A DNA stretch of 64,000 nt from Limnobaculum xujianqingii. Lineage in GTDB: Bacteria > Pseudomonadota > Gammaproteobacteria > Enterobacterales > Enterobacteriaceae. Shown here piece by piece: positions 17,548-55,996 of the stretch. Position numbers and translations under genes: made by a program. Under the pieces are notes generated by a model. It did not search any database. It was given only the letters and a program-made list of their open reading frames with translations, and was not told where the DNA came from. Each line of letters opens with the position of its first letter. Position 1 is the stretch's first letter. The stretch is from the NCBI RefSeq assembly GCF_013394855.1, contig NZ_JABMLK010000001.1, positions 2,127,501 through 2,191,500 on the forward strand, read 5' to 3'.

Positions 17548-17734
17548 CGTTGTCTCCCGATATGTTTAAGACAGCGGTATAACTATAGTTGAGATTCGAA
17601 GCAGAAATAGAAACGAAAGGCGAGCATGAGAGGAATATCACTTATTGTTCATTGGGTAGCCATGCTTTCATCTTTCATAGTACGCCAGAATTCAGCCTAC
17701 AACAGAATGGGAATAGCAGTACCCAAATAACAAA

Positions 17735-17755
17735 AAACCAGCTTTAAGCTGGTTT
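17735..17755 (-). terminator. Rho-independent terminator (minus strand)
   Basis: Arms AAACCAGCTT and AAGCTGGTTT form a 10-bp stem; read on the minus strand it is followed by TTTTTTG. It would end the transcript of the M23 peptidase gene (stop at 17968), placing repeat copy 1 inside that 3' untranslated region in antisense. Confidence 0.65.
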
Positions 17756-17776
17756 AGAATTTCTAGCAAAATCAAT

Positions 17777-17934
17777 CGGAGGGAGAGACCGCCGTTGGGG
17801 TCGTAGCAGCTTTAGCTGCCGAAGTGCCCCTAGGCGGGCTAGGCCCGACGCGCTCCAGGCCTAAGTACTGATGGTCTTCCGGCCGGGCATAACGGCAATA
17901 TTTGCAACATCGTTATTACGGCCGGAATATTCTC
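17777..17934 (+). repeat. Dispersed structured repeat, copy 1
   Basis: About 158 bases in two parts. Part one is closed by GGAG (17778) and CTCC (17853). Inside lie helix CCGCC/GGCGG (17789-17793 with 17833-17837), helix GGGG/CCCC (17797-17800 with 17827-17830), TCG/CGA, and an apical hairpin GCAGC-TTTA-GCTGC (17806-17819). Part two is a long hairpin with arms CCGGCCG (17879) and CGGCCGG (17919), followed by AATATTCTC. Copies at 30536 and 55793 keep the helices but change the paired bases. The function is unknown: either a structured RNA or a non-autonomous mobile repeat. Confidence 0.8.
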
Positions 17935-17967
17935 GAAATCAAAAACGTTCTGATTCAAAAAAATATT

Positions 17968-19026
17968 CTAATCCGCCGACTTCTGCGCTCTCATCGTATA
18001 CAGAATCCGTCCTTCACCTAACGACCGGTATTCAATATCACGATTTGGTTTAGCAAATCCGCCTTCTTGTCCCTGATAGCTGGCAAATTGAACATCACGA
18101 GTCTTTGAATTACCAAACGGGTTTCTTCCTGTATTGCCGCTATTACTTGCAACACGGGTATTATCATAGCCACCGTTAGGTAAATTGAAGTTATTCACCA
18201 GAATCAAATCGCTGGAAAGTGGATCCACAGCACGGTCATTGACTCTCAACTCATAGTGCAGGTGAGCACCTGTGCTGCGACCTGTATTACCCGATAATGC
18301 AATCTTCTGGCCACGGCTTACTTTTTGCCCCGGCTGTACCATCAGCTTACTTAAATGCATGTAATACGTTTCGTAGCTGTTCTTATGGCGAATCACAATA
18401 TAGTTACCAGCAGAAGGACTGTATTTAGCAATAACCACTTCACCCTCTCCCGTAGATACTACGGTTGAGCCAATGGGCATTGAAAAATCAATTCCTTCAT
18501 GTGGAGCACGCTTACGTGTAACCGGATTTAAACGAGAAGGATCAAACTGAGATGTCACTTTAAAAGGCTCAGCGGTCGGGTAGCGGAACATCGTGCTACT
18601 ACTAGGACCAGTGGCTAAGCTATATGATTTAGCATCAGCAATTTTAGTTGAAGACAATCTTTCAGATGATACTTTAGCGGTTTTAGTTTTTGCCGTTTTA
18701 GTACTGGTAGATTTAGTTTTCGCCGTTTTAGTTACGGAAACTTTTTTCTCTGATGCTTTGGTTTTTGTACTCTTGGTACCTGACGATTTAGCGGTAGACG
18801 CTGTCTTAGTACCAGAAGTTTTAGTATTCGATGTTTTAGCGTTAGACGTTTTGCTATTAGCCGACTTAACAGAAACTTTCGCTGTTGAAGCTTTAGTTGA
18901 TTTGCTACCAGAACTACTGCTCTGAGAAGCGAAAGAACTACTTGTTACCAATAACAGACAGCATCCAATAGCCTGATAAAATCGCTTATTAGAAACTTTC
19001 TTAATTATATTAAATCCTGCTGACAT
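17968..19026 (-). CDS. M23-family peptidoglycan endopeptidase with Ser/Thr/Lys-rich linker
   Basis: 352 residues; AGGTG precedes ATG 19026. A signal peptide (about 1-33) is followed by a low-complexity Ser/Thr/Lys/Ala linker (about 34-130) built from degenerate TKTAKTKS-like units. Then comes a LytM/M23 domain (about 145-275) with zinc motifs HEGIDFS and HLHYE, both intact, so it is likely an active DD-endopeptidase of the periplasm. The positively charged linker may hold it to the cell wall or cross it. The C-terminal 80 residues are Asn/Gly-rich and of unknown role. The repeat and terminator just downstream belong to its 3' region. Confidence 0.88.
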   Translation of the reverse strand: MSAGFNIIKKVSNKRFYQAIGCCLLLVTSSSFASQSSSSGSKSTKASTAKVSVKSANSKTSNAKTSNTKTSGTKTASTAKSSGTKSTKTKASEKKVSVTKTAKTKSTSTKTAKTKTAKVSSERLSSTKIADAKSYSLATGPSSSTMFRYPTAEPFKVTSQFDPSRLNPVTRKRAPHEGIDFSMPIGSTVVSTGEGEVVIAKYSPSAGNYIVIRHKNSYETYYMHLSKLMVQPGQKVSRGQKIALSGNTGRSTGAHLHYELRVNDRAVDPLSSDLILVNNFNLPNGGYDNTRVASNSGNTGRNPFGNSKTRDVQFASYQGQEGGFAKPNRDIEYRSLGEGRILYTMRAQKSAD

Positions 19027-30456: not shown

Positions 30457-30535
30457 TTTTTTAGTTATAAAAAGCCTTTTACTTCATATTGATGAAAAAT
30501 CTGATGCTACAACTTTATACTTCAAAATAGTTAAC

Positions 30536-30693
30536 CGGAGGGAGACCTTTCCGTTGGGGTCGACTTGGCGCAAGCCAACGAAGCGCCCCTAGGAAAGGTA
30601 GGCCCGACGCACTCCATACCTGAGTACAGACGGTTTACTGACCGCTTTCGGTGTATATATAAGCACACTGTTATTACGGTCGGAATATTCTCA
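30536..30693 (+). repeat. Dispersed structured repeat, copy 2
   Basis: Same plan as copy 1. GGAG (30537) pairs with CTCC (30612). Helix CCTTTCC/GGAAAGG (30546-30552 with 30592-30598) replaces CCGCC/GGCGG. GGGG/CCCC (30556 with 30586) and TCG/CGA are kept, and the apical hairpin is TTGGC-GCAA-GCCAA (30565-30578). The distal hairpin uses CTGACCG (30638) and CGGTCGG (30677). It lies after the LacI gene and before a strong terminator, so it would be transcribed as part of that 3' region. Confidence 0.8.
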
Positions 30694-30723
30694 GAGGCTG
30701 ATTTATTATATTTGCTGGCAATT

Positions 30724-30747
30724 AAAAACCCCGCACCGCGGGGTTTT
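30724..30747. terminator. Bidirectional terminator between lacI-type gene and zraP
   Basis: AAAACCCCGC and GCGGGGTTTT form a 10-bp stem with loop ACC; A and T runs on both sides allow termination of the LacI-side and the zraP transcripts. Confidence 0.85.
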
Positions 30748-55720: not shown

Positions 55721-55792
55721 TAGATAAACAAAGCCCGCCGATTAGAGAGCTCTGAGGCTTCTGACAAATCTAATAAATCCGCATTTATGCAT

Positions 55793-55940
55793 ATTCCGGC
55801 CGTAAAAATAATGTGCTTATGTCTGCATCAGTAACGGTCGGTAAACCCTCTGTACTCAGCTACAGAGCGCGTTGGGCCTGGCCGGGTTAGGGGCGCTTCG
55901 TTGGCTTACGCCAAGTCGACCCCAACACCCGTCCCTCCCA
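55793..55940 (-). repeat. Dispersed structured repeat, copy 3 (inverted)
   Basis: The element lies on the minus strand. Its second helix is CGGGT (55927-55931 on the plus strand as ACCCG) paired with ACCCG (55883-55887); GGGG/CCCC, TCG/CGA and the apical hairpin TTGGC-GTAA-GCCAA (55901-55914) are kept, as is the distal hairpin near 55796-55840. It lies in the 3' region of uxaC in the sense orientation. Confidence 0.8.
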
Positions 55941-55996
55941 ACGATTAGCAATCTTAAAGTACTAAACTGAACGATAAAGCTTTGTCATTAATCCTC

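Follow-up and report, generated by a model that had tools for sequence, protein, structure and literature searches.

Terminator hairpins as the usual target of an apparently new family of YPAL-like miniature mobile elements in Limnobaculum and other enterobacteria

De Gregorio and co-workers are said to have found in 2006 that the YPAL repeats overlap transcriptional terminators and, when situated in a 3′ UTR, reportedly raise the level of the mRNAs that carry them (3′-end stability). In the available excerpts of PMC2229807, YPAL occurs in Yersinia and Erwinia carotovora and has target duplications of 3–26 bp, at or beside dyad symmetries; the repeat is also treated for Yersinia pestis in PMC2267715 and PMC5193452, and no mobiliser is named in the accessible portions of this literature. 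The unit designated RU-2 begins ttcagactgctgacaaa and ends actttgtcaataacctca as printed in the accessible part of PMC2759123. The ERIC/IRU/RU-1 repeats resemble the element described here in being non-autonomous, palindromic and intergenic in enterobacteria but, according to the excerpts available of PMC2229807 and PMC2759123, they measure 127 bp and have TA ends, and by inspection both their ends and their core are unrelated to those of our element. Long target duplications, which are a further point of likeness, are described in the available text of PMC10132070 for several members of the IS1202 family (16–28 bp), whose ISAjo2 group differs from our element in ending 5′-TGT...ACA-3′.

The window analysed here, a stretch of 64,000 nt from the genome of Limnobaculum xujianqingii (assembled in two large contigs, 3.03 and 1.69 Mb in length, plus a small third), contains what a preliminary description presented as a three-copy intergenic element, either a structured RNA family or a mobile palindromic repeat. 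Re-reading the sequence confirmed copies at positions 17777–17934, 30536–30693 and, inverted, 55793–55940, together with their helices (CCGCC/GGCGG, CCTTTCC/GGAAAGG and CGGGT/ACCCG, and the apical GCAGC/GCTGC against TTGGC/GCCAA) and their apical loops (TTTA, GCAA and GTAA). The number of copies had been greatly underestimated: a covariance model of the 83-nt core finds 142 matches in the genome at E ≤ 0.01, at least 125 of them with 56 bits or more, and this count is a lower bound, 150 of 1,091 first-look candidates having been scored (a first blastn had already given at least 40 copies). Leaving out the 16 matches below 40 bits resulted in the set of 126 own-genome copies used below.

Copy 1 (+ strand) comprises a core hairpin with P1, P2 and an apical stem closed by the loop TTTA (17774–17856, from sequence, fold and model), followed by a second hairpin region with GGAATAT at its end (17857–17930, from sequence). 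It adjoins a terminator-like stem-loop, AACCAGCTTTAAGCTGGTT (17736–17754), of which no second copy is recognisable; the congener G002, without the element at this site, has the corresponding stem-loop once. The core of copy 2 (+ strand; apical loop GCAA) spans 30533–30615, on the same three lines of evidence, and its second hairpin region, read from the sequence and also with GGAATAT at the end, 30616–30688; the terminator stem-loop AAAAACCCCGCACCGCGGGGTTTT is situated immediately past the copy (30724–30747, from sequence). The core of copy 3 (− strand; apical loop GTAA) was located by sequence and model at 55864–55946, and past this copy there is a degenerate terminator stem-loop, AGCTCTCTAATCGGCGGGCT (55732–55751, from sequence), where element-free congeners show an intact one. 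Core starts were taken from the model matches, the length of 83 nt being that of the model. The boundaries drawn at first were too narrow, since copies 2 and 3 extend into imperfect terminal inverted repeats, with a probable full extent, judged by eye, of about 30488–30723 (+) and about 55755–55996 (−), respectively. None of the three window copies has a recognisable double stem-loop.

Comparison with three congeners (G001, G002 and G003) showed that all of them lack copy 3, whereas copy 1 is found in G003, in a truncated state in G001, and not at all in G002. The site of copy 2 is occupied in G001 by an element whose apical stem differs, and is organised differently in G002. In G003 the element occupies this site in the opposite orientation (window 30536–30693 against L231:12810–13110), and the states of G001 and G003 amount to repeated insertion or inversion at one site.

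Aligned flanks of copies from the own genus reveal imperfect terminal inverted repeats, roughly GAYTGATGACAAAG... and ...TTTGTCAGCAGTC, although these are lost in many copies; the complete Limnobaculum unit is about 240 bp long, including the second hairpin (TTACGGYCGGAATAT). A cleaner unit, of 132 bp in most copies, is found in other genera, with ends CAGACTGCTGACAAAG and CTTTGTCATCAACCTC (the inverted ends are also written as SAGRYTGMTGACAAAG). Its core hairpin is built alike, as GGGAGAG-stem-GGGGTCG-apical hairpin-CGGAGCGCCCC-stem-CTAGGCCC, and the unit lacks the second hairpin that is present in the window's family of copies. The final base of the right end is variable and often, by eye, the same as the base preceding the left stem-loop, so it was counted as part of the duplication. 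Tandem arrays were also seen in the flanks of own-genome copies, at C2:100746, C1:3003815 and C1:2073709; their neighbouring units retain the outer stem and the second hairpin and have lost the inner hairpin, as in AATCGTCGGGCCCAGCCCGACGC.

The terminal sequences of YPAL/RU-2 and of our element are nearly the same (ttcagactgctgacaaa/actttgtcaataacctca against CAGACTGCTGACAAAG/CTTTGTCATCAACCTC), and, as far as the published excerpts go, both share a target duplication of variable length at dyad symmetries or terminators and a palindromic RNA, putative in our element. In contrast, YPAL/RU-2 is given there as 168 bp, against 132 or about 240 bp, and the cores have no detectable similarity in the one pair compared (score 13.0, against a shuffled mean of 14.7). 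The ranges also differ: whereas the available part of PMC2229807 places YPAL in Yersinia and Erwinia carotovora, a match to our core at E ≤ 0.001 was found in 35 of 392 enterobacterial genomes, belonging to 17 of the 154 genera searched, own genus included, in a survey with stricter filters that lose weak matches. Named carriers are Limnobaculum allomyrinae, Pragia fontium and Leminorella grimontii; when 200-bp stretches were sampled, those of the congener G001 agreed fully with L. allomyrinae contigs in 12 of 14 cases and those of G078 with P. fontium in seven of seven. From a class-wide sample of 369 genomes, the own genome alone matches, with none of the other 368 doing so at E ≤ 1e-4. Because ends and targeting are shared and the core is different, we designate the element YPAL-like and do not class it as YPAL. 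We recognised no description of the family in the literature consulted, which was mostly without subscription papers, so an earlier one may exist.

DNA similar to a window copy was detected in no phage, plasmid or E. coli sequence; a copy from genome G407 has similar DNA in two plasmids, from Yersinia frederiksenii and Serratia proteamaculans, and in no E. coli genome. No viral contig matched a search with the core pattern, and a match in Amaricoccus (L068), in which the spacing is shorter, was discounted as fortuitous.

The element has the attributes of a MITE, namely terminal inverted repeats, target duplication, high copy number and no transposase. Of the two natures first proposed for it, that of a mobile palindromic repeat is borne out by copy number, terminal inverted repeats, presence or absence among relatives and a duplicated target; an RNA family is possible as well, with no match in Rfam. 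Our main reading, to which we assign a probability of roughly 0.8, is that of a non-autonomous, MITE-like element of the YPAL kind that targets terminators and whose folded core is kept by compensatory change. As to its parts, we hold it as nearly certain that the element is mobile and directed to terminators.

The evidence for this targeting comes from the flanks. We tried 58 loci from other genera, of which 18 had been hand-picked earlier and the other 40 were model hits chosen regardless of their flanks; 51 loci with credible ends (seven genomes, five genera) were kept, after leaving out those without termini (L064, L256, L262, L277 and L278), L105, which duplicates L271, and L276, with non-credible ends. 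A direct repeat anchored at the element edges (score ≥ 20) was present in 37 of the 51 copies, compared with 37 of 2,998 mispaired flanks, and in 27 of the 40 loci not chosen by flanks. The repeats measure 15–31 bp, with a mean of 19.7 over the 38 that score at least 16, and 31 of these 38 touch both edges of the element without slack. By eye, they are nearly always the stem-loop of the target terminator, as in L258 (AAAAAGGCCGCTGTCGCGGCCT - element - GGCCGCTGTCGCGGCCTCC), and all 38 have at least four A in the left 8 nt or at least four T in the right 8 nt. Terminators are used in either orientation, with 13 showing the A-tract only, six the T-tract only and 19 both. The usual target in the genera examined is thus an intrinsic terminator, whose stem-loop ends up on both sides of the element. 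The long repeat is absent in 14 of the 51 copies, a few of which show, by eye, about 4–7 bp; one of the short-repeat copies, L103, is inserted in a hairpin loop.

Among own-genome copies, 13 of 115 pass a score of 22, reached by 0.74 % of mispaired flanks, and 102 do not; this test excludes 11 of the 126 copies, in which no hairpin end was recognised on the 3′ side. One of the 13 is the tandem array at C2:100746. The own-genome copies look older.

It might be argued that the flanking hairpins are part of the element, or resemble each other by chance, terminators being all palindromic and many own copies lying in convergent intergenic spaces, which may hold two terminators. We find this scarcely credible, because left and right hairpins match within a site and differ between sites, because the mispaired control gave the low figure above, and because empty sites have a single hairpin, which contradicts it at the three sites compared. 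At C1:2614784 there are two copies of the stem-loop in the window's genome and one in each of G001, G002 and G003; at L258 it occurs twice in G179 and once in G018; and at C1:1175142 it is found twice in the own genome and once in G002, with a decayed copy of the element in G001 and G003. The single stem-loop in the element-free relatives settles the direction of change at these three sites.

How a whole stem-loop comes to be duplicated can be accounted for, with what we consider an even chance of being right, by a cruciform step. An enzyme acting in trans would make an ordinary strand transfer with a short stagger of a few nt, spanning the foot of a terminator hairpin that has been extruded into a cruciform, that is, at a four-way junction, and repair would then copy the whole cruciform arm and so duplicate the stem-loop. 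The duplicated stretch would follow the hairpin because the transfer points, though 15–31 bp apart in the linear sequence, would be close to each other across the cruciform base. The short-repeat copies of about 4–7 bp, such as L103, could reflect the same stagger with no arm in between. The correlation between the length of the repeat and the span of the palindrome located by a crude finder is only moderate (r 0.50), less than would be expected from a cruciform step.

Other systems share parts of this behaviour. Group IIC introns also insert beside terminator hairpins, but they comprise a large ribozyme and a reverse transcriptase and are not known to leave a target duplication, and the window has no Rfam match to any intron family. 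With Cas1-Cas2, two strand attacks, one at either end, lead to duplication of an entire palindromic repeat, comparable to the duplicated stem-loop here, and cruciform-forming sequences have been reported as off-target sites; our element differs in being a unit of fixed composition that brings its own ends. Single-strand-type enzymes, as well as group IIC introns, use hairpins, and the terminator target would also agree with attack by such an enzyme on a hairpin in single-stranded DNA, such as the lagging-strand template, instead of on a duplex cruciform. We consider this unlikely, given that duplication of a whole hairpin needs breaks on both strands, that insertions are mixed in orientation relative to the tracts (the 13, six and 19 cases mentioned above) and that, to our knowledge, known single-strand transposition leaves no target duplication. 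Transcription of the element within 3′ UTRs followed by reverse transcription at a nicked terminator would produce duplications of variable length, in agreement with the variable repeats, the structured, transcript-like core and the 3′ UTR location; nevertheless, terminal inverted repeats with constant ends and the constant 132 bp of most clean copies fit a DNA transposon better, making a route through RNA very improbable.

The core hairpin is held by compensatory changes, beyond chance. RNAalifold predicted 24 pairs from 31 copies, 14 of them with both sides changed in at least one sequence. Across genomes, an alignment of 50 distinct sequences, all taken from genomes other than the window's, showed pairing in 94.3 % of cells, falling to 38–46 % when partners were slid by 1–3 columns, and two-sided changes in 15 of the 24 pairs; any of five measures was reached in none of 500 shuffles. 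These figures lean towards the structure tested, which was derived from the window genome's copies and to which the alignment was fitted through the model. Within the own genome (122 of the 126 copies with an ungapped core, 120 of them distinct), the P2 stem has 26 haplotypes, 14 fully paired, and all seven scored positions are paired in 94 of the 122 copies. The selection on pairing proposed in the preliminary description is thereby upheld, both genome-wide and across genera. Its three replacements do restore pairing, but their independence cannot be judged from three window copies, since the stem types are sub-family types, and consequently the case for covariation rests on the genome-wide and cross-genus set rather than on them.

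Support does not extend to every modelled pair: among the outside rows, 26 of 49 leave the apical pair 32/122 open and 13 of 50 do so for pair 24/131, and in the own genome pair 24/57 is G-G in 37 of 120. As a single sequence, 30536–30693 folds better than shuffled versions (z −2.65, with one of 200 as good), and the longer 30470–30740 is not clearly better (z −1.27, 25 of 200). Outside the own genome there are 59 G-U cells against four A-C cells, and position 28/127 is a U-G pair with hardly any variation; for the own genome the excess is not significant (13 against 8, p 0.38). The G-U excess suggests, rather than proves, an RNA on the modelled strand, the cells not being independent events.

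From the compensatory changes, the stable loops such as GTAA and GCAA, the nearly invariant U-G pair and the excess of G-U over A-C outside the own genome, one could argue that the family exists first of all as a structured RNA, regulatory or acting in trans, with its core kept because the RNA works and its mobility being secondary. Rfam, a search of which the preliminary description had suggested, gave no family that explains the copies: at gathering score there were no matches in the window nor in 10 loci with copies, and at E up to 5 nothing credible was found in 17600–18000, the best weak match being isrK (E 0.046) on the other strand. The sites are also scattered, with duplicated targets and no constant neighbour gene, and vary in presence between congeners, and the pairing could equally serve the recognition of a DNA hairpin by a mobilising protein. 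An RNA in the first place is, on this balance, a rather improbable explanation, and we retain that of a terminator-targeting mobile element.

The own-genome copies sit at gene 3′ ends. With a crude ORF caller, 73 of the 126 lie between convergent genes, 50 between genes in tandem (22 and 28) and three between divergent genes, and 15 overlap an ORF of at least 80 aa. As background, adjacent gene pairs in the window are convergent in eight cases, divergent in nine and tandem in 24, using 42 of its 43 ORFs after leaving out an overlapping one. Read from the sequences, insertion leaves the T-tract beyond the right stem-loop and the A-tract beyond the left one. Since each tract thus remains on the outer side, neither of two convergent genes loses its terminator, which lies past the element, so that insertion would be tolerated and the element would be read within the 3′ UTR. 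The element would in this way become part of 3′ UTRs, where its folded core may be selected as RNA (mRNA 3′-end stability, by analogy with YPAL), be recognised by the mobilising protein, or both. A YPAL-like effect on mRNA level is a plausible function for the element, although a role as a 3′ UTR RNA is one that we propose tentatively.

The target rule proposed here, insertion at a terminator with duplication of its stem-loop, is an exact one for enterobacterial intergenic repeats that had been loosely described, and offers a possible reason why a genome can tolerate well over a hundred such insertions at the ends of its genes. It also implies that there is a mobilising enzyme still to be found, one guided to its target by structure. 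Through the ends that they have in common, YPAL becomes linked to a wider group, which spans 17 genera or more. It is conceivable, at somewhat less than even odds in our judgement, that these repeats represent a terminator-seeking class, whose enzyme would read the structure of DNA and not its sequence, strike a four-way junction and duplicate one cruciform arm, leaving a working terminator on each far side, with unrelated cores, such as those of our family and of YPAL, sharing the enzyme through their ends. Annotators should note that the strong covariation of such repeats may lead to their being taken for small RNAs.

The following searches found neither a mobilising enzyme nor an autonomous relative. 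The exact end motif CTGMTGACAAA occurs at 75 places in G000, G018 and G407, of which 23 are near model hits and the other 52 were read; no autonomous element with the same ends was present at any of the 75. Among the 17 places read in G407, nine are family elements, including shortened units (L107, L116 and L117) and units with inserts in the apical stem (L108 and L120), one (L115) is an unpaired left end and seven are chance-like by eye. The 22 places in G000 and 13 in G018 are also chance-like by eye, most of them, where measured, inside long stop-free stretches. Opposed end pairs more than 300 bp apart, with up to two mismatches, were absent from loci L001–L292. In viral contigs, end motifs were found at 25 and 48 loci, with one opposed pair (L358, 1083 bp, two mismatches) that was taken as chance. 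Model NF033594, which we take to cover the IS1202-type transposase, exceeded its cut-off in none of the 17 carrier genomes, eight of which have weak matches below it; an IS1202-type mobiliser was accordingly rejected.

At L115 (G407:C33), from position 97, the left end TCAGACTGCTGACAAAG is found beside a hairpin, and in the different sequence that comes after it no right end matches; this is possibly a remnant of another cargo with the same ends. The insert in the apical stem of L120 (G407; oriented positions about 160–245) brings the unit, which still lies between two identical stem-loops, to 204 bp, and L108 starts with an insert that is similar; the element may carry other repeats as passengers. 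Finally, L096 (G320) and L101 (G379) contain core hairpin units in which no terminal repeats were seen, preceded by what looks to us like the end of sdhB; in L096, three core units are arranged in tandem, about 95 bp apart.
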